Part shown: piece after piece, positions 5,184-16,012 of the stretch
How positions within the stretch are numbered: the first letter of the stretch is position 1
Layout: each line of letters begins with the position of its first letter
NCBI RefSeq assembly: GCF_000247645.1
Contig: NZ_AHWA01000002.1
Span: 558,001 to 622,000 of the forward strand
Reading direction: 5' to 3'
DNA: 64,000 nt
Source of the DNA: Salinibacterium sp. PAMC 21357
GTDB taxonomy: Bacteria; Actinomycetota; Actinomycetes; Actinomycetales; Microbacteriaceae
Notes under the pieces: model-generated
The model's input: only the letters and a program-made list of their open reading frames with translations
The model's database searches: none
Told to the model about the DNA's origin: nothing
Program-made: the position numbers and the translations under genes

Positions 5184-5257
5184 TCCGCCAGCTTAGAGCG
5201 CCTCGCCACCCCCAAGGGCTCTGATGCGGTCGGAGCAACGCGCGCCGTGCTCGCGGG

Positions 5258-5263
5258 TAGAAT
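5258..5263 (+). promoter_or_regulatory. -10 element (TAGAAT) of the zinc-ribbon SDR gene
   Basis: TAGAAT ends 5 nt before the GTG at 5269 and there is no Shine-Dalgarno sequence. This decides the start codon. Confidence 0.45.
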
Positions 5264-5268
5264 CTGGT

Positions 5269-6747
5269 GTGCTCAATTCAAGCGACTCCCCCGAACTCGG
5301 CCCGAGCGGCCTCGATCCGTTGGAACTTGAAACGACCCTCAAAGTTTTGCGCCAGATGGCCGAGATCGATGACGAGCACCCCGACTTCGTTACCGTGCGC
5401 CGCGCTACGGCCGCAATGTTCAAAGCAGTCAAGAAAGAGCGCCGTCTTGAAAAGCGCGCCACGATTGCGGATGCCGACCGTCAAGTGATCGCCGCAACCG
5501 CAACGGGGGCGGCAGATCGAATCGACGACGAGACTCGGGGCATCCCGATTTCGACGACAACAACGGCGCCGTCTGCCGGCGAACTCATCAAGGCACGCCC
5601 CTGCTACATCTGCAAGCAGTCGTATACAACCGTTGACTCGTTCTACCACCAGCTCTGTCCACGCTGCGCGGCCTTCAACCATGCCAAACGCGATGCTCGC
5701 ACTGACCTCACCGGCAAACGCGCCCTCCTCACCGGTGGCCGCGCAAAGATCGGCATGTACATTGCGCTGCGTCTATTGCGGGATGGCGCTCACACCACAA
5801 TCACGACCCGCTTTCCGCGCGATGCCGTTCGTCGCTTCTCGAGTCTTCCCGATTCGTCAGACTGGCTGCACCGCCTTCGCGTTGTGGGAATCGACCTCCG
5901 CGATCCCGCTCAGGTCATCGGGCTCGCAGAATCGGTCGCCGCGCAGGGCCCACTCGACATCCTCATCAACAACGCCACCCAGACGGTGCGCCGCTCCCCC
6001 GGTGCTTACCAGCCCCTCGTCGACGGCGAGCTTGCACCGCTGCCTGATGGCCCTCGGCCCGAGCTCGTCACCTTCGGGCACACCAATGATCCGCACCCTC
6101 AAGCATTGGCACAGTCGGTTTCGGCGCATCCGATCCTGGCTGCTGCAGCGACTCGAGCAGAAGAACTCACCGAGCAGGCGATGACGGCAGGCTCGAGCTC
6201 GCTCGAACGGCTCGCTGCGGGAACCGCGATCGACGCTGGTGGGCTTGTGCCCGATCTAGATTCGATCAATTCGTGGACCCAACACGTCGATCAGGTTGAC
6301 CCGCTTGAGATGCTCGAAGTGCAGCTGGCCAACACGACCGCCCCGTTCGTATTGATCTCGATGCTGCGCCCCTCAATGGCCGCAGCTTCGGGGCGCCGCA
6401 AATACATTGTGAATGTGTCAGCGATGGAAGGCGTGTTCGGCCGCGGTTACAAGGGCCCCGGGCATCCGCACACCAATATGGCCAAAGCCGCCGTAAACAT
6501 GCTCACCCGCACCAGTTCACGAGAAATGTTTGAGAGCGACGGCATCCTGATGACGAGCGTCGACACCGGCTGGATCACGGATGAACGCCCCCACCCCACC
6601 AAGGTGCGGTTGGCCGAAGAAGGATTTCATGCGCCGCTCGACCTTGTCGATGGTGCGGCCCGCGTCTACGACCCCATTGTGCGTGGCGAAGACGGCGAAG
6701 ACCTGTACGGCATCTTCCTCAAGGACTACGACAAGAGCTCATGGTGA
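5269..6747 (+). CDS. SDR-family oxidoreductase with N-terminal zinc ribbon
   Basis: A short-chain dehydrogenase domain occupies roughly residues 148-492: cofactor loop TGGRAKIG (about 155-162), NNAT in place of NNAG, a Ser-containing strand (VNVSAMEG) and a following Lys (NMAKAA). Ahead of it is a 110-residue helical region and a probable zinc site with Cys112, Cys115, Cys130 and Cys133 (CxxC-x14-CxxC). I chose GTG 5269 because TAGAAT (5258-5263) lies 5 nt upstream, giving a leaderless start; an in-frame ATG at 5224 is upstream of this promoter. Substrate unknown. The stop overlaps the start of the next small gene. Confidence 0.8.
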   Translation: MLNSSDSPELGPSGLDPLELETTLKVLRQMAEIDDEHPDFVTVRRATAAMFKAVKKERRLEKRATIADADRQVIAATATGAADRIDDETRGIPISTTTTAPSAGELIKARPCYICKQSYTTVDSFYHQLCPRCAAFNHAKRDARTDLTGKRALLTGGRAKIGMYIALRLLRDGAHTTITTRFPRDAVRRFSSLPDSSDWLHRLRVVGIDLRDPAQVIGLAESVAAQGPLDILINNATQTVRRSPGAYQPLVDGELAPLPDGPRPELVTFGHTNDPHPQALAQSVSAHPILAAAATRAEELTEQAMTAGSSSLERLAAGTAIDAGGLVPDLDSINSWTQHVDQVDPLEMLEVQLANTTAPFVLISMLRPSMAAASGRRKYIVNVSAMEGVFGRGYKGPGHPHTNMAKAAVNMLTRTSSREMFESDGILMTSVDTGWITDERPHPTKVRLAEEGFHAPLDLVDGAARVYDPIVRGEDGEDLYGIFLKDYDKSSW

Positions 6748-6980
6748 CCCCGGCAGAGTTTCTGAAGAGCACCACGAGTGGAACTCGTGTCGTTGTACGT
6801 CACCTCATTGACGACGGGCGCGCGACCGACTCTCTCGGCTACTTTCACCTCGCGGACGACACGCACTGCGTCGTCGCAACCAAGCGTGGACTCGAAACGA
6901 TCGAGCTGGCGAAGGTGATTGCGGCAAAAGAGATTCCGCCACCACCCGCGCCTCGGCCTCGCGCTACTTCTTCGGAGTAG
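6741..6980 (+). CDS. Small protein resembling the N-terminal SH3-like domain of Rv0428c-type acetyltransferases
   Basis: The 79-residue protein starts inside the last codons of the SDR gene (ATGGTGA overlap), so the two are translationally coupled. The core (GTRVVVRHLI...DSLGYFHL...VATKRGLETIELAKVIAAKEIPPPP) resembles the small beta-rich domain that precedes the GNAT domain in actinobacterial Rv0428c-like acetyltransferases, where the phrase VVAVKAIPPPP is common. Here the acetyltransferase domain is absent. The 3' end overlaps the convergent FAD oxidase by 17 bp. Function unknown. Confidence 0.6.
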   Translation: MVTPAEFLKSTTSGTRVVVRHLIDDGRATDSLGYFHLADDTHCVVATKRGLETIELAKVIAAKEIPPPPAPRPRATSSE

Positions 6981-8724
6981 CCTTCTTCGCTGGGGCCTTC
7001 TTCGCCGCTACACCGCTCTTCGCAGGCGCTGCTTTCGCTGCGACCGTGACACCACCGGCGGGCGTAACTTTTCCGGGGTTGAAGTTGTGCGCGGGATCTG
7101 CCGAATCGAACAACCCCTGCATGACTTTGACGCCTTCGGTGGAGATGTCCTGTTCGAGCCACGGTGAGTGTTCAAGGCCGACGCCGTGGTGATGCGAGAT
7201 GGTGCCGTCGTTGTCAACGAATGACTGCTGAATGGCACGCTTCACGGTGTCGTACTCTCCCAAGGGGTTGTCGCCAAAAGTGAACGCGAACGTGAAGTAG
7301 AGACACGCGCCCGAATGGTAGGAGTGGGACATGTGCGACATGATCCACCCTTTGGTGCCGAGCGAATCGTAGGCGTCTTGGGCTGCCTTGTGGGCTGCCG
7401 AGTGCAGCTTCACTACTGATGACCACGGCGTCGCGGTCTCCGATACGTCTCCGGCAGCACCCATGTCGAGCAGGAAGTCGCGCAGGTAGGGGGTGTCGAA
7501 CTTTTTCTGGTCGTAGAGGATGCCTGGGCCCTTGCCCACCCCCATTCCGCCGTGCTTGCTCACAATCTTGTCGACAAGCTTCTTCTGACCTTTGGCGTGA
7601 GAGACGCTTCCTTCAAAGCCGATAAACGAGAGACAAATGTCGTCGAGGTTCCAGCCCTTCGCGGTCATTAATTTGGGCAGTGCGGTGTCTGCGGTGAATT
7701 TGCTGAATCCGCTGCGCGATTTGCTGGTCGCGAGCGAGAAGCCGGTCTCTTTTGCATCAGAAATTCGGGTGATGGATGGTGCGGCATCCGATTCTGAGAT
7801 TGCCTGCATCGCGGCAATTCCTGATTTCCAGTTAGGGAAGAAGTAAGCAAACACGTCGCGCTTAGCGGGAATGCGGTGCACCTGGACGGTGACTTCGGTG
7901 ATGACACCAAGTCGTCCTTCGCTGCCCAGGATCATTTCGCGCACGCTTGGTCCGCTCGATGTGCTTGGCAATGGTCGCAGAACGAGCATGCCGCCGGGGC
8001 GAACTACGCGAAGCCCTCGAGTGATGTCAGCGATGTCGCCGTACTTGTCTGATTGCATGCCGGAGGACCGTGTCGCTACCCAACCACCAACGGTGGAGTG
8101 CGTGAAGCTGTCGGGGAAGTGCCCGATGGTCCAGCCTCGAGCATTGAGTTGTTCTTCGAGGTCAGGGCCTTGAGCGCCCGCCTGAATTCGGGCGAGACCA
8201 GAATCAGCATCGACTGCCACGACTTTGCGTAGCCGTCCGAGGTCGAGCGAAATTACGACGCGCTTTTCTTCGGGCATCGGCTCGAGGCTGCCCGCAATGT
8301 TGCTGCCGCCACCGAAAGGGATAATGACTGCATTAGCTGCGACTGCGGCATCCACAATCGCTTGCACTTCAGCTTCGTCGGCAGGGTAGATAACGACGTC
8401 AGGGCTGCGCTTGATGGCGTTGCTGCGAATTCGCACGAGGTCGCGAAGGCTCTTGCCGTACGTGTGGATGACGCGCACCATGTCATCGATAGTGACGTTG
8501 CTGTCGCCAACAATGGCCGCCAATTGCTTGATAAACGCAGCAGTTGCTTTGCTCCGAGGAACGTTGAGCTCGTCGAACGATGGCTCTCCTGCGCGAGTCG
8601 CTGAGCCGAGATCGAGACCAACAGCGTACTCCACGAACGGCGCAAAACCGGGCTTATCTTCGTGGTGAAAACCCACCCCTTCGTTGCCCCAACCCCACCA
8701 CTTCATGTGTTTGACAGAGGTCAT
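6964..8724 (-). CDS. FAD-binding oxidase, alkyldihydroxyacetonephosphate synthase (AGPS)-like
   Basis: A 586-residue flavoprotein of the vanillyl-alcohol-oxidase fold. FAD-binding signatures: PFGGGSN (136-142), the segment GGWVATRSSGMQSDKYGDI, and GSEGRLGVITE. The C-terminal part carries a His triplet SHHHGVG (about 508-514) and SYHSGACLYF, both positioned as in AGPS, where such residues exchange the acyl chain of acyl-DHAP for a fatty alcohol to form the ether bond. The protein ends in a Lys/Ala/Pro-rich tail of about 30 residues, as in histone H1-like tails. It overlaps plsC by 4 bp and, with the downstream neighbours, suggests ether-lipid synthesis. A glycolate/lactate-oxidase-like role is the alternative. 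Confidence 0.8.
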   Translation of the reverse strand: MTSVKHMKWWGWGNEGVGFHHEDKPGFAPFVEYAVGLDLGSATRAGEPSFDELNVPRSKATAAFIKQLAAIVGDSNVTIDDMVRVIHTYGKSLRDLVRIRSNAIKRSPDVVIYPADEAEVQAIVDAAVAANAVIIPFGGGSNIAGSLEPMPEEKRVVISLDLGRLRKVVAVDADSGLARIQAGAQGPDLEEQLNARGWTIGHFPDSFTHSTVGGWVATRSSGMQSDKYGDIADITRGLRVVRPGGMLVLRPLPSTSSGPSVREMILGSEGRLGVITEVTVQVHRIPAKRDVFAYFFPNWKSGIAAMQAISESDAAPSITRISDAKETGFSLATSKSRSGFSKFTADTALPKLMTAKGWNLDDICLSFIGFEGSVSHAKGQKKLVDKIVSKHGGMGVGKGPGILYDQKKFDTPYLRDFLLDMGAAGDVSETATPWSSVVKLHSAAHKAAQDAYDSLGTKGWIMSHMSHSYHSGACLYFTFAFTFGDNPLGEYDTVKRAIQQSFVDNDGTISHHHGVGLEHSPWLEQDISTEGVKVMQGLFDSADPAHNFNPGKVTPAGGVTVAAKAAPAKSGVAAKKAPAKKATPKK

Positions 8725-9416
8725 TTCGTTCCCTTCGGGGTAGCGCTGGGCATAGGTTGAACGGTTTCATGCAGTTGACGCACGATCTCAGCAAGTCGGG
8801 CCGAGAAAGCTTCGGAGGTTTCTGACTCACGGCGGTGCTGTAGCTCGCCAAAGACTATCGTGACGGGCAAGCGGCCCGGTTTGGGCCAGTTGACGCCGCG
8901 CGGCATTGCTGTGGTGGCGCCGACGAGGGCGATGGGCAAGCAGGGCACTGACGTGTTAATCGACAGTGCTGCGGCGCCGGGCTTGAACCGCGTGAGCACT
9001 CCCTCTCGAGTGCGACCGCCCTCGGGAAAAATCAGCAATGGCACGCCGCGCTCAAGTAGCGCCCGCGAGGCACCTGCCCTTTTTCCTTCAGCGTTGCGTT
9101 CGATCGCGAAGGCATTGAAAAAGAGAGTGGTCAACCATTTGCGCCACCACACTTCAAAGAAGTAGTCGGCGGCTGCCCCGGCGGCGAGGTAGCGAGATCG
9201 CTGTCGAGGTAGCGCCCCAATAATGAGCGGTGCATCCAGATGGCTTGAGTGGTTGGCAACAGCGATGAACGGACCGTCGTGATCTTCGAGGTGCTTGAGC
9301 CCTCTAATCTCGACGCGCACGAGCGACCACACCAGTGGTTTGAGCAGGCCGCGTTGCGCTACGAATCTCGCCCCGGCCATGGTCGGCGAGGTGAATCGGT
9401 CAAAGTTCCGGGTCAT
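8721..9416 (-). CDS. 1-acyl-sn-glycerol-3-phosphate acyltransferase (PlsC family)
   Basis: A 231-residue LPLAT-domain protein. Block I is NHSSHLD (NHx4D catalytic pair); block III is FPEGGRTREG, which binds the phosphate of the acceptor. The family transfers an acyl chain from acyl-CoA or acyl-ACP to lysophosphatidate or dihydroxyacetone phosphate at the inner membrane face. It overlaps the genes on both sides by 4 bp (ATGA), so the three genes are one translationally coupled operon. Placed between an AGPS-like enzyme and an SDR, it may provide acyl-DHAP or acylate alkyl-glycerol-phosphate. Confidence 0.85.
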   Translation of the reverse strand: MTRNFDRFTSPTMAGARFVAQRGLLKPLVWSLVRVEIRGLKHLEDHDGPFIAVANHSSHLDAPLIIGALPRQRSRYLAAGAAADYFFEVWWRKWLTTLFFNAFAIERNAEGKRAGASRALLERGVPLLIFPEGGRTREGVLTRFKPGAAALSINTSVPCLPIALVGATTAMPRGVNWPKPGRLPVTIVFGELQHRRESETSEAFSARLAEIVRQLHETVQPMPSATPKGTK

Positions 9417-10228
9417 GTGGTGGTCGCGTCTTTCACACCATGAGGTTCGGAGCCCTCGTCACTTCGGCTTGAAGAAATTTTGGCGGAAATCCAACGATTA
9501 GTGCGCAATGGCAAATGTCGAGCAAACCATCCGACGACTCGGTACCGAACAGTAGGTATGGAAACGACTTTGCCTCGCGCCGCATCCCGCAGCGCACCCT
9601 TCACGAGGGTCGCTGCGTCAATCCACATAAAGGACGGAATGGAACCGGTGCGGATGCCCGCCCGTTCGTGGAATTCGGTGACGACCCAGCCCGGCATCAG
9701 CGCCGTGACGGTAACGCCTGTACCCCGAAGTTCTACCGCAAGCCCTTGGCTGTATGACGCAACCCACGCTTTGATCGCTGAGTATGAGCCCATCGTTACG
9801 AGGCCGGCAATGCTCGACACGTTGATGATCGCGCCGCTGCCTCGTTCTCGCATGGCTCGGCCGGCGGTTCCCGCGAGAATGAGCACTGCCCGACACATAA
9901 CGTCGAAGGCATGTTCGTGGACGCTCGCAACATCTGCGCCGGTCAACCGGGCGTGCACTCCAAAGCCAGCGTTATTGATGAACAGGTCAATGGGACGGTC
10001 AGCGTTGGTGAGTCGTGTCGCAACTCGCATTACGTCGTCGCGGAGGGCTAGGTCAGCACTGATGGTTTCTACGGCGATGCCAAATTGTGCATGCAATGCT
10101 TCTGCGGTTTCGGCGAGACGGCTTTCATTGCGGGCAACCAACACGAGGTCGAGGCCGCTCTGGGCAAGTTGTCGCGCAAATTCCGCACCAATGCCTGAAG
10201 TTCCACCGGTGATTAGCGCTGTTGCCAT
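9413..10228 (-). CDS. SDR-family oxidoreductase (candidate acyl/alkyl-DHAP reductase)
   Basis: A classical short-chain dehydrogenase: TGGTSGIG cofactor loop near the N-terminus, NNAG, catalytic Ser in INVSSIAG and YSAIK (YxxxK). It ends with a basic, partly hydrophobic C-terminus. I place the start at ATG 10228 (MATALITGG) because TAGTCT at 10236-10241 is 7 nt upstream; the in-frame upstream start at 10258 would precede this promoter. It is the first gene of the leftward lipid operon. Context makes reduction of the keto group of acyl- or alkyl-DHAP a plausible role; this is inference. Confidence 0.8.
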   Translation of the reverse strand: MATALITGGTSGIGAEFARQLAQSGLDLVLVARNESRLAETAEALHAQFGIAVETISADLALRDDVMRVATRLTNADRPIDLFINNAGFGVHARLTGADVASVHEHAFDVMCRAVLILAGTAGRAMRERGSGAIINVSSIAGLVTMGSYSAIKAWVASYSQGLAVELRGTGVTVTALMPGWVVTEFHERAGIRTGSIPSFMWIDAATLVKGALRDAARGKVVSIPTVRYRVVGWFARHLPLRTNRWISAKISSSRSDEGSEPHGVKDATTT

Positions 10229-10235
10229 GTCGTCA

Positions 10236-10241
10236 AGACTA
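10236..10241 (-). promoter_or_regulatory. -10 element (TAGTCT) of the leftward lipid operon
   Basis: TAGTCT on the minus strand, 7 nt before the ATG of the SDR gene. The 110-bp spacer between the two divergent lipid operons holds this element and the rightward TAGAAT. Confidence 0.4.
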
Positions 10242-10287
10242 CGGCAAGCCTTCCTCAACGATTATGTTTCTCCGGCCGAGTCGCCTC

Positions 10288-10293
10288 TAGAAT
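10288..10293 (+). promoter_or_regulatory. -10 element (TAGAAT) of the rightward lipid operon
   Basis: TAGAAT about 45 nt upstream of the ATG at 10339, which has its own strong Shine-Dalgarno (GGAGGAG, 4 nt spacing). No convincing -35 is visible. Confidence 0.4.
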
Positions 10294-10338
10294 TGGAGCG
10301 AGTCGATGACGCCATCCAGCGTTGAGCGGAGGAGAACG

Positions 10339-11139
10339 ATGCCAAGAAGTATTGAGGTCGCCCTCGATGACATGTCGATTCCGGCACCAGATTTTGACGT
10401 TCGTGCCTATGCCAATGATGCCCACGCTAGCTACCGAGATCTTCTGGATCTTGAGGCATACGCTTCGCAACCGTTGAGCTCAGATACCGTGCGTGCTTTG
10501 CGCTACTTGCAGGTGGTCGAGCGCGGCACGATGACGCACTTGCGCAGTGTGCTCGTTACAGCGACCCACAAAGATGCCCGGGTTACGGCGTTCCTTATTA
10601 CGTGGGCATTTGAGAAGTATTGGATTGCGGATGCCCTCGACCAGATCATTCGTGCCAATGAGGGTGGCACCGTTGACCGCACGCCATTTCGTACCCCTGT
10701 TGAGCGCACCATTCGCGAATCGATTGTCGCCAACATTGTGGGGCTTCCGATGGTTGCTGTTCATACTGCCCTCGGCACTGTTGATGAGTGGCTGATGCAG
10801 GCCGCCTACCGCCGGCTCATTGAGCTCGAGCCACACCCGCAGCTGGCTGACATCGTGACGCGTTTGCTCGCGACAAAATCTCGTCAGCTGCAATTCTTCG
10901 AGGCTCAAGCTCGACACCGTCTCGGGGAGTCGTCTCGGGCGCAAAAAGTCACTCGCCGTCGGCTCGCAAAAACTCCGTGGCCGATTGGCGCGCGCGCCGA
11001 ACCCAGCCAGAACACGGAGTTCTTTTTCCGCTACCTGTTTGGTAGCCAGCCGTCAGCAATCACTGAAATTGATGAACTCATCGACACGCTCGATGGCCAA
11101 AACAACCTCAACCTCATGAAAAGGGCCGCCGCCTTATGA
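10339..11139 (+). CDS. Ferritin-like protein lacking the di-iron ligands
   Basis: A 266-residue helical protein clearly paralogous to the product of 13458-14252 (shared RxLRY, LRxxLVTxxHK, EWxxxAAYxRL, QARxRL). The ferritin-like ligand set is lost: Glu61 and Glu150 remain, but the ExxH of helix 2 is K93xxI96 and the ExxH of helix 4 is K180xxQ183. It is therefore predicted not to bind a di-iron centre and may be a structural partner of its intact paralogue. The start is ATG 10339, preceded by GGAGGAG; an in-frame ATG at 10306 is less well placed. It overlaps the reductase gene by 4 bp. Confidence 0.75.
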   Translation: MPRSIEVALDDMSIPAPDFDVRAYANDAHASYRDLLDLEAYASQPLSSDTVRALRYLQVVERGTMTHLRSVLVTATHKDARVTAFLITWAFEKYWIADALDQIIRANEGGTVDRTPFRTPVERTIRESIVANIVGLPMVAVHTALGTVDEWLMQAAYRRLIELEPHPQLADIVTRLLATKSRQLQFFEAQARHRLGESSRAQKVTRRRLAKTPWPIGARAEPSQNTEFFFRYLFGSQPSAITEIDELIDTLDGQNNLNLMKRAAAL

Positions 11140-13445
11140 CGACCATTAATGCCCTCACCAACGAGCACGTTTTCCTCACGGGAGCAACGGGTTTCGTCGG
11201 TCAGGCAATCCTCGAGCGTTTGTTGTCGAGCTATCCAGATACTCGCGTATCCATTCTGGTGCGCGGCAAAGGGGCGACCAGCGGTGAAGGCCGCCTCACC
11301 AATCTCCTGCGCAAGCCCGTATTCGCTCAGTGGATGGAATCGTTGGGCAAAGATGAGGCGCTAGCTGAGGTTGCGCGTCGAGTCACCGTAATTGAAGGCA
11401 GTCTGACGGATGTCGGCACGCTGCCGGATGACATTGATGTCGTCATCCATGGCGCGTCGACGGTCTCGTTTGATCCGCCGATCGATGAAGCCTTCGACAC
11501 CAATGTTGGCGGCGCAACCGGAATCTATACCGCACTCTTAGAGAGCGAGTCTCGACCGCACGTTGTGCACATCTCGACCGCCTATGTCGGCGGTATTCGC
11601 AAGGGTATTGTTCCCGAGGCTTCGCTCACTCATGAGGTCGACTGGCGTGCGGAGTACGAAGCTGCGCGCACGGCGCGCACACGCGTTGAATTCGAGTCTC
11701 GTCAACCGGAAGCGCTCCGTGCCCTGCTAGATGCTGCCAAGGCGCGTCACGGAAAGGCTGGTCCGCAGGCGGTCGCTCAATTTGCTGAGGCTGCTCGGGC
11801 TGAGTGGGTACACGATCGCCTTGTTGACTATGGGCGGATGCGCGCAGAAAGCCTCGGCTGGACCGACGTCTATACCCTCACGAAGGCATTCGCTGAGCGG
11901 GTGGCTGAAGAGTTGTGGGCTCAGGCGGGGAATCGGCTTTCGGTAGTTCGTCCGTCGATTATTGAGAGCGCACTGCACCACCCGTTCCCTGGCTGGATTG
12001 ATGGTTTCAAGGTCGCTGACCCGCTGATTTTGGCGTATGGCCGCGGACAGTTGCCCGATTTTCCGGGTCTTCCTGACTCGATTCTCGATGTCATTCCGGT
12101 CGACTTCGTGGTGAATGCGGCGTTGGCGGCGGCCGCCAGTACGGTTGACCCGGCAGCACCCCGGTACTACCACGTGAGTTCTGGCGCGAGCAATCCGCTG
12201 CCGTTCCACCGCATGTACGAGAACGTGAATGCGTACTTTACGGCGAATCCGTTGCCGGCAGAAGATGGCGAGATCAGTGTTCCGCTGTGGCAATTCCCTG
12301 GTGGTCAGCGCGTAGAAAAGGCACTCGTGAAGCGCGAGCGTCAAGCCGAGCGCGCTGAGCGGATGATCGCCAAAATGCCCACGACGCCTCGAACGCGTCG
12401 GTGGCTTGATGAGGTCAAGAGCGGCCAACATCAGCTAGAAGTGTTGCGCGCTTTCTCTAATCTTTACCGCGCCTATGTGCAGACGGAGATCATCTTCGAC
12501 GATGCCAATACTCGTGAGCTTTTGGCGTCGCTACCGAAAAAAACATCACCGAGCGCGCGCTTCGATGTCACTGAGATCAACTGGGAGAACTACTTTCAGC
12601 AGGTTCATTTTCCCGCGATCACTACGCTGACGCGAGCGTTCGCCAATCGGCCGGCTGCTCGCGCTCGCACCGCCAAGAAGTTGCCGGTGCGCAGCGATGT
12701 TGTCGCGGTCTTCGACCTTGAGGGCACCGTGGTTGATTCCAACCTGGTGAAGCAGTATTTGCTGCTCTGGGGCGGCACCGTTCCCCGGGCTAAAGTCGTG
12801 CACGATTTGGCTAATTTCACGTTCTCGCTGCGCAAATATTTGCGTGCTGAGCGTCGAGACCGTGGCGAGTTCATCCGCACCTTCATGCGTCGGTATGAGG
12901 GTTTCAAGATCGTCGAGATCGAACGGATGGTGCGCGGCAGCTTTGGGCGGGCCATGATGCGTCGGGTGATGCCGGATGCGCTGCGCCGGGTTCAAGAGCA
13001 CCGTGACGCCGGTCACCGCACCATTTTGGTGACGGGCACGATCGATCTCATGGTGACGCCGTTTCTCCCCTACTTCGATGAGGTTGTTGCCGGTCGTATG
13101 CATGAGCGCCATGGCGTGCTCACGGGGTTCTTGGCTGATCCTCCGCTCGTGGATGAGGCTCGGGCCGCATGGTTGCGTCACTATGCCGACCTCAATGGTT
13201 TCAACCTCACCCAGTCGTACGGCTACGGCGACAGTCATGCCGACCTGGTGTGGCTGCAGCTAGTGGGGAACCCGAGTGCGGTGAACCCCGACGTCAACCT
13301 GTACAAGCATGCTCAGGAGAAGCGCTGGAATGTGCTCGACTGGAAGCGCCGTTCTCCCAACACCCGTATCCCACGACCTCGCGCCGCCGCACTAGCACCG
13401 GCGCCATTGGAAGGAGAGGAACAGAACTCGACGCCGTCGAGCTAG
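11136..13445 (+). CDS. Fatty acyl-CoA reductase fused to a HAD-IB phosphatase domain
   Basis: A 769-residue two-domain protein. Residues 1-about 500 form a male-sterility-type NADPH-dependent fatty acyl reductase: cofactor loop TGATGFVG (15-22), Tyr246/Lys250 (YTLTK), and VRPSIIESA...PFPGWIDG typical of the family. A C-terminal sterile segment (INWENYF..HFPAITTL) links to a HAD-IB domain from about 520: nucleophile Asp527 in FDLEGT, then LVTGTIDL and GYGDSHADL. The usual second Asp of DxD is Glu529. The reductase would make fatty aldehyde/alcohol; the HAD could remove a phosphate. Start overlaps the upstream stop (ATGA), so translation is coupled. It lies between two ferritin-like genes. Confidence 0.85.
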   Translation: MTTINALTNEHVFLTGATGFVGQAILERLLSSYPDTRVSILVRGKGATSGEGRLTNLLRKPVFAQWMESLGKDEALAEVARRVTVIEGSLTDVGTLPDDIDVVIHGASTVSFDPPIDEAFDTNVGGATGIYTALLESESRPHVVHISTAYVGGIRKGIVPEASLTHEVDWRAEYEAARTARTRVEFESRQPEALRALLDAAKARHGKAGPQAVAQFAEAARAEWVHDRLVDYGRMRAESLGWTDVYTLTKAFAERVAEELWAQAGNRLSVVRPSIIESALHHPFPGWIDGFKVADPLILAYGRGQLPDFPGLPDSILDVIPVDFVVNAALAAAASTVDPAAPRYYHVSSGASNPLPFHRMYENVNAYFTANPLPAEDGEISVPLWQFPGGQRVEKALVKRERQAERAERMIAKMPTTPRTRRWLDEVKSGQHQLEVLRAFSNLYRAYVQTEIIFDDANTRELLASLPKKTSPSARFDVTEINWENYFQQVHFPAITTLTRAFANRPAARARTAKKLPVRSDVVAVFDLEGTVVDSNLVKQYLLLWGGTVPRAKVVHDLANFTFSLRKYLRAERRDRGEFIRTFMRRYEGFKIVEIERMVRGSFGRAMMRRVMPDALRRVQEHRDAGHRTILVTGTIDLMVTPFLPYFDEVVAGRMHERHGVLTGFLADPPLVDEARAAWLRHYADLNGFNLTQSYGYGDSHADLVWLQLVGNPSAVNPDVNLYKHAQEKRWNVLDWKRRSPNTRIPRPRAAALAPAPLEGEEQNSTPSS

Positions 13446-13457
13446 TTCCCACACCTC

Positions 13458-14252
13458 ATGGCATTTGATATTGATCGCTATACGTCTACCTCGAAGAAGG
13501 TTCAGTGGGGCGACCTCGACTTCACCGAATTTGAGCGCAATCCTCTCCCCGACGCGACCTTACGTAGCCTGCGCTACATGGCCGACGTCGAGTACCACAC
13601 GGTCTGTTACCTGCGTGATTTGCTCGTAACGCCCTCGCACAAGGAGGTCGACGTGAGCGCCTTCATGACGATGTGGAATCGTGAAGAGTTCTGGCACGGT
13701 GAAGCGCTCGCCAAGGTTCTTGGTGCCCACGAGGTAACCCTCGACTTCGATCAGCTCAAAGCGACCCGGCTGAAGCTTGGTTGGAAGGACCGTCTCGACC
13801 CGATCAAGCAGTCAGTGCTCGGCAACGTGATCGGCAAGGACTTCATCGCCGTTCACATGATTTGGGGCGCCGCGAATGAGTGGTCGGCTGTAGCAGCGTA
13901 CAACCGTCTCGCAGATTTGGAAAAGCATCCGGTGCTCTCTGAATTGCTCCGCCGCATCGCGAAGCAGGAAGCGCGCCACGTTGCCTTTTATGCCACTCAG
14001 GCGCGCGAGCGTTTGGCTAAAAGCAAGAAGGCCCAGGTGCTTGCTCGCCTGGCGCTCAAGGGCGCGTGGGGGCCTGTGGGTTCGAGCATTATGCCGGCGG
14101 ATGAGGTCACCCACGTGATGGGTCATCTCTTCTCTGGTGAAGAGGGTTTGCGCGAGATTCGTAAGCTCGATGAGCACATTTCTCGCATGCCAGGTCTTGA
14201 GGGCCTCACCATTGTGGAGACCTCCATGAAAAAGTATGGGGTTGCCGCGTAA
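13458..14252 (+). CDS. Ferritin-like di-iron protein
   Basis: A 264-residue helical protein with a complete ferritin-like di-iron ligand pattern: Glu45, Glu77xxHis80, Glu141 and Glu171xxHis174. Soluble proteins with this E/ExxH/E/ExxH set include acyl desaturases, aldehyde-deformylating oxygenases and N-oxygenases. It follows the reductase by 12 bp and is last in the operon. With AGPS-like, PlsC and fatty acyl reductase genes beside it, an oxygen-dependent modification of a fatty or ether chain (for example vinyl-ether formation) is a testable guess, not shown. The paralogue at 10339 lacks both ExxH motifs. Confidence 0.75.
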   Translation: MAFDIDRYTSTSKKVQWGDLDFTEFERNPLPDATLRSLRYMADVEYHTVCYLRDLLVTPSHKEVDVSAFMTMWNREEFWHGEALAKVLGAHEVTLDFDQLKATRLKLGWKDRLDPIKQSVLGNVIGKDFIAVHMIWGAANEWSAVAAYNRLADLEKHPVLSELLRRIAKQEARHVAFYATQARERLAKSKKAQVLARLALKGAWGPVGSSIMPADEVTHVMGHLFSGEEGLREIRKLDEHISRMPGLEGLTIVETSMKKYGVAA

Positions 14253-14296
14253 GAGGCGTAGGCTGCTCGCTGGACTATTGGCGACGAGAGAATTGG

Positions 14297-14302
14297 TAAG
14301 TT
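14297..14302 (+). promoter_or_regulatory. -10 element (TAAGTT) of the K+/H+ antiporter operon
   Basis: TAAGTT lies 6 nt before the GTG at 14309, giving a leaderless start for the regulatory subunit. Confidence 0.4.
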
Positions 14303-14308
14303 GGAACC

Positions 14309-14803
14309 GTGGGCGTAAGAATCGAACGAATTGACCTTCCCGGTTTTGGTGTGCGCAATGACGTAATCACCAATTCAGGATGCCGTGTCAGCGTGGTTTC
14401 GCTGCGATCAGGAGAACGCGATCTTGCGTTCTTCAACGCGGATGACCCTGACTCGAATGCGGCATCGATCTCGTTGAGTGATGACGAGGCTGCAGCAATT
14501 GCTGAGGTTCTCGGTTCGTCGCTCACGCTCAGTCGTTTGTCTGTTCTCGGCGAAAAGGCGGAGGGCCTCTTCACTGAAGAAATCTCCCTCCCCCGCGGCT
14601 CTGGTTTTGTCGGTCACCCTATGGGCGACATGAAGGCGCGCACTCTCACGAGTGCTTCGATCGTCGCTATTGTTCGGGGAAACGATGTTGTTGCTTCTCC
14701 TGGCCCTGAGGTTGTCTATGAGGCTGGTGACGTAATCGTTGCTGTCGGCACCCGCAAGGGTCTTGACGCGCTCGGCAAGCTCATCAATAACGGTCCAAGC
14801 TAA
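14309..14803 (+). CDS. Regulatory subunit of a cation:proton antiporter (KhtT-like, TrkA-C domain)
   Basis: A 164-residue soluble protein. The N-terminal half is a KhtT-like region and the C-terminal half (about 80-160) an RCK-C/TrkA-C domain, with the characteristic LPRGSGFVG..MGD...SASIVAIVRG and GDVIVAVGT. Such subunits sense nucleotide, ions or pH and gate the membrane antiporter encoded next to them. GTG start chosen from the -10 hexamer 6 nt upstream. The antiporter gene follows 9 bp later. Confidence 0.8.
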   Translation: MGVRIERIDLPGFGVRNDVITNSGCRVSVVSLRSGERDLAFFNADDPDSNAASISLSDDEAAAIAEVLGSSLTLSRLSVLGEKAEGLFTEEISLPRGSGFVGHPMGDMKARTLTSASIVAIVRGNDVVASPGPEVVYEAGDVIVAVGTRKGLDALGKLINNGPS

Positions 14804-14812
14804 GGCTCGCGT

Positions 14813-16012
14813 ATGCACGAGACGACGCAGCTACTTATCGAGGTTGGCGCTCTCCTGCTCGTGCTTAGTGTGCTTGGCAGAGTTGCCGCACGCTTCGGTT
14901 TTTCGGCGATCCCGCTGTATCTGCTTGCAGGTCTCGCTGTTGGCGAAGGTGGGCTGCTCCCGCTGCAGGCCAGCGAAGAGTTCTTCGAGGTCGGATCACA
15001 GATCGGCGTGATTCTTCTGTTGGCGATGCTCGGTTTGGAGTACTCGGCTGACGAGCTTGTCTCGAACCTTAAGACGTCGAAAATCTCCGGGATTTTGGAT
15101 GCGGTGATGAATGCGCTGCCCGGCGCGCTTTTCGCCATTTTGCTGGGCTGGGAACCAGCTGCCGTGGTGGCTCTCGCGGGAGCGACGTGGGTGTCATCTT
15201 CCGGTGTTATCGCCAAGGTTGTCCGAGACCTCGGTCGGCTCGGTAACCGAGAAACGCCCGTGATCCTTTCCATTTTGGTGATGGAAGACCTCGCCATGGC
15301 GTTTTATCTGCCGGTACTTTCTGCGCTGGTGATCGGCGCGGGCCTGATGCAGGGCGCAATCACAGTGGCGATTGCCGTGGCCGTTGTTGTGACGATCCTC
15401 TACGTGGCGCTGCGCCACGGTCGCTTCCTCTCGCGCCTCTTGCCAGACAAGAACGCAGAAGCTCTCCTGTTGGGCGTTGTGGGGCTCACGATGCTCGTTG
15501 CCGGCCTTGCCGAGGGCGTGAACGTATCGGCGGCGGTTGGCGCCTTCCTCGTCGGTATCGCAATCTCTGGGCCGGTCGCCCATCAATCCGCTCAACTCAT
15601 CACTCCGCTGCGAGATCTTTTCGCCGCTGTGTTCTTCGTTTTTTTCGGGATTTCGACTTCTCCGGCCGACATCGTTCCGGTGCTGCTGCCAGCGTTTGCC
15701 CTCGCTGTTCTCACGATTTCTACAAAAGCTTTTTCCGGCTACAAGGCCGCGAAACGCGCCGGTATCGCGGCGCCCGGCCGCTGGCGCACTGGCTTAGCGC
15801 TCACACCGCGTGGTGAGTTCTCCATCGTGATCGCGGGGCTTGCTGTCGGCGCCGGTATCGAACCAACGCTCGCCCCGCTGGCGACCGCGTACGTGCTCAT
15901 GACGATCGTGGCGGGGCCACTGCTCGCTCGTGTGCCCGACACTGCCTGGTTCAAGGCGCGGGTGCGCAAGCCCGTTTCAGCGCCGCCTGCAACACCGATC
16001 ACGACGCCGTAG
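14813..16012 (+). CDS. CPA2-family K+(Na+)/H+ antiporter (KhtU/KefB-like)
   Basis: A 399-residue protein with about 12-13 membrane helices from residue 5 on and only a short basic tail, so it lacks its own RCK domain. The second and third helices (PLYLLAGLAVGEGGLLP), the region LLAMLGLEYSADEL and the segment GEFSIVIAGLAVGAG are typical of the Kef/KhtU group. It exchanges K+ or Na+ for protons at the inner membrane and is probably gated by the preceding TrkA-C subunit. Confidence 0.85.
   Translation: MHETTQLLIEVGALLLVLSVLGRVAARFGFSAIPLYLLAGLAVGEGGLLPLQASEEFFEVGSQIGVILLLAMLGLEYSADELVSNLKTSKISGILDAVMNALPGALFAILLGWEPAAVVALAGATWVSSSGVIAKVVRDLGRLGNRETPVILSILVMEDLAMAFYLPVLSALVIGAGLMQGAITVAIAVAVVVTILYVALRHGRFLSRLLPDKNAEALLLGVVGLTMLVAGLAEGVNVSAAVGAFLVGIAISGPVAHQSAQLITPLRDLFAAVFFVFFGISTSPADIVPVLLPAFALAVLTISTKAFSGYKAAKRAGIAAPGRWRTGLALTPRGEFSIVIAGLAVGAGIEPTLAPLATAYVLMTIVAGPLLARVPDTAWFKARVRKPVSAPPATPITTP

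Follow-up and report, generated by a model that had tools for sequence, protein, structure and literature searches.

The aerobic route to ether lipids, as described in PMC9131029 and PMC9702350, runs through FAR1, GNPAT, AGPS and PexRAP. In the mammalian version, which is peroxisomal and endoplasmic-reticular (FAR1, GNPAT, AGPS, PexRAP/DHRS7B), the vinyl-ether bond of plasmalogens is formed by the membrane protein PEDS1/TMEM189. Myxococcus xanthus also makes plasmalogens aerobically, with the elb operon, MXAN_1676-1674 and the membrane desaturase CarF (PMC9131029), while the anaerobic plsA/plsR system of Clostridium perfringens converts a diacyl lipid directly and reductively to the vinyl ether (PMC9702350). 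Here we describe a cluster of six genes in a 64,000-nucleotide stretch of the genome of Salinibacterium sp. PAMC 21357 (contig NZ_AHWA01000002.1, positions 558,001 to 622,000; hereafter the window). The cluster encodes an AGPS homologue, a PlsC-family acyltransferase (PlsC), a short-chain dehydrogenase (SDR), a fatty acyl-CoA reductase fused to a HAD domain (FAR-HAD), and two ferritin-like proteins, FL1 and FL2. Judging from the protein sequences, the cluster very probably encodes an aerobic ether-lipid pathway based on dihydroxyacetone phosphate (DHAP). We further propose, with a probability of roughly 55%, that FL2 is the vinyl-ether desaturase; the end product is most likely a plasmalogen.

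The cluster shares with the mammalian pathway an AGPS, a FAR, a PlsC-type acyltransferase and an SDR, as well as the DHAP-based aerobic logic; the acyltransferase and reductase roles are assigned here by family alone. Unlike the mammalian genes, these form a single bacterial cluster, the FAR carries a HAD domain, and a soluble ferritin-like protein stands in the place of PEDS1/TMEM189, whose domain (PF10520) had no match in 12 genomes with FL2 and AGPS. The AGPS, FAR, acyltransferase and HAD parts recur in M. xanthus, but there CarF is the desaturase, ElbD is a different multidomain enzyme, and the gene order is different (PMC9131029). With plsA/plsR the cluster would share the vinyl ether as end product, but the same 12 genomes lack a DUF2229 match. 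FL2 itself resembles soluble acyl-acyl carrier protein (acyl-ACP) desaturases and R2-like ligand-binding oxidases in its predicted fold and in its E...ExxH...E...ExxH ligands. It differs from the soluble desaturases in its low identity to them (14-20%), its score below the Pfam cut-off, its ether-lipid gene context, and the inactive-looking paralogue that usually lies alongside.

The ether-lipid assignment depends first on the AGPS homologue. Among PDB sequences searched with phmmer, it matched the AGPS of Dictyostelium (2uuu, E = 1.3e-117, 397 bits) and of guinea pig (4bby, E = 9e-82, 279 bits), and the best flavoprotein of another type reached 69 bits (E = 4.5e-18); that is, its sequence is nearer to solved AGPS than to glycolate, lactate or 2-hydroxyglutarate oxidases. 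The GGG loop for FAD (from residue 138) and the HHH motif (511-513), which a first-pass annotation of this DNA, made without database searches, had noticed, are both present. R320, R415, Y476 and H511-513 align with guinea-pig R419, R515, Y578 and H615-617 (guinea-pig numbers counted by hand on the phmmer alignment), which we take to be active-site residues. We aligned 33 proteins: cluster-type AGPS, distant AGPS-like proteins, solved AGPS, GlcD/YdiJ-type proteins, and a protein from locus L154. The R, R, Y and HHH are identical in the 14 other cluster-type proteins, the six distant AGPS-like proteins, and both solved AGPS. The nine GlcD/YdiJ-type proteins have E in place of the first arginine, H in place of the tyrosine, and GEH (in one case AEH) in place of HHH; the L154 protein has R-K-Y-DHH. 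In a tree built with IQ-TREE, the 15 cluster AGPS are united with a support of 100/100 and group with the solved AGPS at 100/99, and the GlcD-like proteins stand apart (100/100); the program warns of long branches, including both solved AGPS. The first-pass annotation had allowed for a homologue that clusters with glycolate/lactate oxidases, and the tree puts it with the eukaryotic AGPS. We conclude that it is a true AGPS homologue, and we predict that it exchanges an acyl for an alkyl group. A separate and more distant AGPS-like clade (L195-L200; 32-39% identical) keeps all six active-site residues. Six genomes of the family Microbacteriaceae have such a distant match, and FL2 is absent from five of them (threshold E up to 1e-60).

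The AGPS homologue (FAD_binding_4 and FAD-oxidase_C), PlsC (Acyltransferase), the SDR and FAR-HAD (NAD_binding_4 and HAD) all have Pfam matches above the cut-offs, which agrees with the families given to them in the first-pass annotation. The reductase is of the male-sterility type and matches the fatty acyl-CoA reductase 7eoz at E = 2.2e-48. Its NAD_binding_4 domain has the GxxGxxG (GATGF) and YxxxK (YTLTK) motifs; DLEGT and GDSHAD motifs are also present, and the C-terminal Sterile domain is below the Pfam cut-off (30.6 of 35.4). PlsC, with NHx4D at residue 55 and EGGRT at 132, is a candidate DHAP acyltransferase and/or sn-2 acyltransferase. The SDR is of the classical kind (TGGTSGIG, NNAG, YSAIK) and is a candidate alkyl-DHAP reductase: its nearest PDB chains are various SDRs (the comparison included no DHRS7B sequence), and its best NCBIfam model, a mycolate reductase, is below the cut-off. 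The steps that we suggest for these three proteins follow by analogy with FAR1, GNPAT and PexRAP around AGPS in the known aerobic route. Together with the tree placement of the AGPS homologue, the PlsC, SDR and FAR set upholds the ether-lipid reading of the first-pass annotation. In clusters from Subtercola and Labedella, a second PlsC lies between FAR and FL2 (L108:7402-9836; also L094, L117-L119, L122 and L141), and the L108 cluster, the locus checked for it, also holds a lactate-racemase-like gene (PF09861).

The two ferritin-like proteins are about 33% identical to each other, and neither is above any Pfam or NCBIfam cut-off. FL1 had no match to either collection. FL2 had sub-threshold Pfam matches to Rubrerythrin, FA_desaturase_2 (PF03405; 19.0 bits, with a cut-off of 22.7) and AcsF. 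FL2 has three ExxH motifs, at residues 77, 171 and 216. Residues E45, E77, H80, E141, E171 and H174 are invariant in 84 of 84 FL2 proteins (from the best 80 loci of the scan described below plus L173-L176) and also in alignment A1, whose 30 sequences include 13 from outside the family at 36-49% identity. The AlphaFold model of FL2 is confident (mean predicted local distance difference test score, or pLDDT, of 87.9), and its top Foldseek matches are plant acyl-ACP desaturases (E from 8.9e-4; template-modelling scores, by query length, of 0.50-0.64; 14-20% identity to the chains listed). R2-like oxidases come next, and DesA2 from M. tuberculosis and VlmB are also present. A search with a profile built from the FL2 family recovered DesA2 (E = 2.7e-5); the match with the lowest E-value (9e-10) was a designed helix bundle. 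The predicted model, the Foldseek matches and the invariant ligands point to a helical di-iron fold with the E, ExxH, E, ExxH pattern for FL2, and we predict that it folds like the soluble acyl-ACP desaturases. This agrees with the intact soluble di-iron protein proposed in the first-pass annotation. FL1 is also predicted to be helical (mean pLDDT of 87.1, confident), and its nearest folds are R2-like oxidases, with a best E of 3.2e-3 and none at E up to 0.001. It has no ExxH motif, and in all 76 FL1 proteins that were left after nine were dropped from the alignment, K or R replaces E77, I, L, M, V or T replaces H80, and K or R replaces E171. FL1 therefore appears, by its sequence, to be a non-catalytic partner with a degenerate metal site in most species.

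We scanned genome contigs with FL2 and kept the best 80 of 240 relatives as loci. The nearest relative among titled genomes is from marine actinobacterium PHSC20C1 (97% identity; Salinibacterium sp. PAMC 21357 itself was possibly outside the scan), and the titled relatives are mostly Microbacteriaceae. Of the 80 loci, 65 contain the complete set of six genes (67 of 84 with the four added loci). Three of the 15 incomplete loci (L076, L077 and L116) run into contig ends. FL1 and FL2 are alone within L091, L101, L110, L121 (Glaciibacter flavus), L131, L133 and L139, and FL2 is alone within L095, L130, L135, L138 and L140; gene order is altered in L099 and L123. The full set is found in Subtercola, Agreia, Herbiconiux, Plantibacter, Glaciihabitans, Galbitalea, Labedella, Salinibacterium, Lacisediminihabitans and others, and, outside the family, in Phytoactinopolyspora and Streptomyces. 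Because the same arrangement recurs in other genera and in two other families, it is not due to chance. In L134 (Homoserinibacter gongjuensis), the AGPS and FAR sequences are fragmented over several reading frames, by decay or by sequencing error.

Of the 299 Microbacteriaceae genomes sampled, 91 have FL2 (E up to 1e-60), 85 have cluster-type AGPS (E up to 1e-160), and 83 have both. The two genomes with AGPS and no FL2 are drafts that are 85% and 77% complete, and one of them has a fragmentary FL2 match. Eight genomes have FL2 without cluster-type AGPS; in one of these (G107), the other five genes lie on a contig that starts inside PlsC, and AGPS was probably lost in an assembly gap. Within the genus Salinibacterium, FL2 and AGPS are both missing from three of the six genomes sampled, and in the phylum, 26 of 396 genomes match FL2 at E up to 0.001. 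FL2 is also present in all five genomes in which AGPS and FAR are not linked to it. In Naasia, AGPS, PlsC, SDR and FAR are on one contig and FL1-FL2 on another, and in four Jiangella genomes, SDR, PlsC, AGPS and FAR are together, with FL2 on a separate contig and no FL1. FL2 therefore accompanies AGPS and FAR even where the genes are unlinked, and some genomes do without FL1. One metagenome-assembled genome (G690; L095, L219 and L212) has two copies of FL2, one in a full cluster and one solitary.

We searched 12 genomes that have both FL2 and AGPS (that of Salinibacterium sp. PAMC 21357, four Subtercola, Glaciihabitans, Agreia, Plantibacter, Herbiconiux, Phytoactinopolyspora, Streptomyces and Jiangella) for the known vinyl-ether enzymes. 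None had a match to PF10520 (Lipid_desat, the domain of CarF and PEDS1), so a CarF/PEDS1 gene elsewhere in the Salinibacterium genome was rejected as a candidate for the vinyl-ether step. (The 11 other genomes come without completeness figures.) Since PF10520 was silent in 14 control genomes too, its absence alone is not a safe guide; the model matches 12 of 296 phylum genomes. DUF2229 (PF09989), which we take to be a domain of the anaerobic PlsA/PlsR, likewise had no match in the 12 genomes and matched 4 of the 14 controls, and we rejected a PlsA-like protein as the vinyl-ether enzyme. Microbacteriaceae presumably belong to the order Micrococcales. In the sections of PMC9702350 available to us, plsA/plsR are placed in several actinobacterial orders, and Micrococcales is not among them.

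Eleven of the 12 phylum genomes that match PF10520 have no AGPS at E up to 1e-40 (G324, G374, G428, G461, G482, G493, G524, G534, G555, G565 and G575, in family f18), and their PF10520 proteins are perhaps desaturases with another substrate. The twelfth, G427, belongs to a different actinomycetotal family (f47). There, a CarF-like PF10520 protein is convergent with a FAR and next to the C-terminus of an AGPS (L193:2903-6152), and a full-length AGPS homologue is on another contig. By its gene content, this may be an independent plasmalogen locus in which CarF fills the desaturase slot. This single case is anecdotal, yet it is what functional replacement would look like.

Lipid reports give some indication of the product. 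The first-pass annotation had named dimethylacetals, as plasmalogen markers, from some cold-adapted Microbacteriaceae, and the literature confirms this for four species of Subtercola (PMC5945732); they are also reported for Kineococcus (PMC7472656). In S. vilae DB165, the dimethylacetals are i-16:0 (17.0%), a-15:0 (3.2%) and a-17:0 (1.9%); for S. frigoramans, S. boreus and S. lobariae, figures from earlier papers are 6.9-13.3% for i-16:0 and 9.7-11.0% for a-15:0 (PMC5945732). From these figures, dimethylacetals sum to about 21-29% of peak area in the four species. The same fatty-acid table shows almost no unsaturated acids, with a trace of a-15:1 in S. boreus only (PMC5945732). We found the six-gene cluster in S. 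vilae DB165, two strains of S. boreus, and S. lobariae CGMCC 1.12976 (loci L108, L117, L118 and L122). The cluster thus co-occurs with reported dimethylacetals, an association that the first-pass annotation had proposed to look for, in three of the four species; the S. boreus strains are not named as the type strain, and no S. frigoramans genome is in the sample. For Agreia, PMC5945732 gives a low level of iso-15:0 dimethylacetal (up to 4%) in its text but enters it as not detected in its comparison table; the cluster is present in Agreia sp. Leaf283.

We infer the following reactions for the cluster. FAR would make a fatty alcohol; PlsC would acylate DHAP and/or, later, the sn-2 position; AGPS would replace the acyl group with this alcohol, yielding alkyl-DHAP; and the SDR would reduce this to alkyl-glycerol-3-phosphate, with the HAD domain as an accessory phosphatase. 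FL2, presumably in a complex with FL1 as its non-catalytic partner in most species, would use O2 to introduce the 1'-2' double bond of the vinyl ether, the task of membrane CarF/PEDS1 elsewhere. We give an even chance to a broader proposal, that FL2 founds a third class of vinyl-ether enzymes: a soluble ferritin-like desaturase of plasmanyl lipids or alkyl-glycerophosphates, unrelated to CarF/PEDS1 and to PlsA/PlsR and usually completed or regulated by its dead paralogue FL1. Aerobic plasmalogens would then be widespread across the Microbacteriaceae and would also occur in Jiangellaceae and in some Streptomyces.

Several observations weigh against this role for FL2. The Foldseek E-values for FL2 are modest (best 8.9e-4), and the association of FL2 with AGPS (Fisher p = 1e-61) was computed without correction for shared ancestry. 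The link of DUF2229 to PlsA/PlsR is our assumption, and the CarF-AGPS-FAR neighbourhood is one short contig among the 12 genomes with PF10520. The four Jiangella genomes have AGPS, FAR and FL2 without FL1. In 16 of 16 loci from other classes, there is no match to AGPS, FAR or FL1 beside the FL2 homologue (29-50% identity). FL1 and FL2 occur without cluster-type AGPS or FAR in all five genomes searched for both (four Agromyces, one of them metagenome-assembled, and Leifsonia sp. Leaf264), where AGPS matches reach 76 bits at most and the FAR threshold was E up to 1e-20. Another seven genomes of the family have FL2 without cluster-type AGPS (the genome-wide search covered AGPS), and one of these (G142) has a distant AGPS-like protein (37%). 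The FL1-FL2 pair therefore acts outside the pathway or persists on other substrates. The 11 FL2 proteins tested from orphan pairs form a single nested clade (90/79), which would be explained most simply by one separation and then long retention with intact ligands; the pairs without AGPS have no informative neighbours in common within 5 kb. As for the lipids, the link to dimethylacetals consists of one genus with genomes plus the weak and inconsistent report for Agreia, and the available text of PMC5945732 does not use the word plasmalogen. Term searches of papers on Lacisediminihabitans profunda and on Salinibacterium/Agromyces (with Salinibacterium metalliresistens) found no mention of dimethylacetals; the genera of L. 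profunda and S. metalliresistens have other members with the cluster. The same was true of a paper on Rhodoluna lacicola; because none of these species matches a genome known by name, these papers are neither support nor clean negatives.

Some of these observations would fit a cluster that makes saturated alkyl ethers only, with FL2 desaturating or hydroxylating an acyl chain or acyl carrier thioester, and with the vinyl ethers of Subtercola due to another enzyme. The acyl-ACP desaturase-like fold, the retention of FL1-FL2 without AGPS or FAR in Agromyces and Leifsonia, and the distant homologues that lack these genes beside them all favour this idea. We nevertheless consider it unlikely, as FL2 is present in 83 of the 85 family genomes with cluster-type AGPS and in five of five unlinked genomes, and Subtercola is nearly free of unsaturated acids yet rich in dimethylacetals (PMC5945732), with no PF10520 or DUF2229 match in its four genomes searched. 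It is quite improbable that FL2 acts on the fatty alcohol or aldehyde made by FAR (like an aldehyde-deformylating oxygenase, or as an oxidase that supplies aldehyde) and so supplies or depletes the pool of alcohol. The FAR gene lies between those of FL1 and FL2, and ferritin-like oxygenases that act on fatty aldehydes exist, but the FL pairs lack FAR in five of five genomes searched, no aldehyde-deformylating oxygenase is among the best 50 of 395 structural matches (E up to 10), and vinyl ethers would be left unexplained. That the AGPS homologue is a glycolate/lactate-oxidase-type flavoprotein, in a cluster unrelated to ether lipids, is barely credible: glcD is its top-named NCBIfam match, but far below the cut-off (120.8 of 567.9 bits), and the PDB scores, the active-site residues and the tree contradict it. 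As to vinyl-ether desaturation by FL2, the first-pass annotation had suggested such a step for a soluble di-iron protein. The predicted fold, the co-occurrence with AGPS, and the lack of a CarF/PEDS1 domain match in the Subtercola genomes searched strengthen that suggestion; it stays a proposal, and the pairs without AGPS or FAR weaken it.

In the review PMC9131029, myxobacteria are presented as the striking exception among aerobic bacteria, and CarF homologues beyond them are confined to a few Leptospira and Alphaproteobacteria. The AGPS part of the cluster is a new occurrence of known enzymes, and the desaturase candidate is the new element; among the matches listed in our search of the open-licence literature, we found no description of a ferritin-like plasmalogen enzyme. 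The cluster offers genes for the unexplained dimethylacetal chemistry of Subtercola, and FL2 is a candidate for a vinyl-ether enzyme of a new kind, which should be easier to purify than membrane CarF/PEDS1 because it is predicted to be soluble. As a genomic marker, the cluster would predict plasmalogens in 83 of the 299 sampled genomes of the family. It would also be worth re-checking the peak that routine fatty-acid typing labels "C14:0 2-OH", since in Kineococcus rubinsiae the MIDI peak of that name was identified by gas chromatography-mass spectrometry as a-15:0 dimethylacetal (PMC7472656). S. lobariae is listed in the Subtercola table with 14:0 2-OH (10.3%) as well as a-15:0 dimethylacetal (9.7%) (PMC5945732), and these two entries may represent one substance counted twice. 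Frondihabitans is described as without dimethylacetals and with C14:0 2-OH as a major acid (PMC5945732).

Features of the cluster, with positions in the window.
Feature	Protein	Position	Strand	Length (aa)	Pfam match
AGPS-type alkyl-DHAP synthase homologue	P0001	6964..8724	-	586	
PlsC-family acyltransferase	P0002	8721..9416	-	231	PF01553, 9e-21
SDR (short-chain dehydrogenase)	P0003	9413..10258	-	281 (from TTG)	PF00106, 6.4e-38
FL1, ferritin-like paralogue with degenerate metal site	P0004	10306..11139	+	277	
Fatty acyl-CoA reductase-HAD fusion (FAR-HAD)	P0005	11136..13445	+	769	PF07993, 4.3e-47; PF12710, 1.5e-30
FL2, intact di-iron ferritin-like protein	P0006	13458..14252	+	264	

The six open reading frames fill 6964-14252 of the window, just as the first-pass annotation had them, with three on each strand in divergent orientation (the genome is 3.1 Mb). 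By their coordinates, AGPS and PlsC, PlsC and SDR, and FL1 and FAR overlap by 4 bases each, and FAR and FL2 are 12 bases apart. A scan of 6600-14500 for sigma-70-like promoters found no site, so the picture of two divergent, overlapping operons rests on orientation and overlap. The true start of the SDR may be the ATG at 10228 instead of the TTG.

Three sets of neighbours were rejected as parts of the pathway by how often they lie near the cluster in the 80 loci (which differ in length): an SDR at 5224-6747 (12 loci), an EamA transporter (2 loci), and a TrkA_C/antiporter pair (8 loci). The adjoining SDR has an N-terminal extension of about 160 residues. Directly downstream of the cluster, at 14309-16012, a TrkA_C-domain protein and a CPA2-type cation/proton antiporter are likely a K+ efflux pair.

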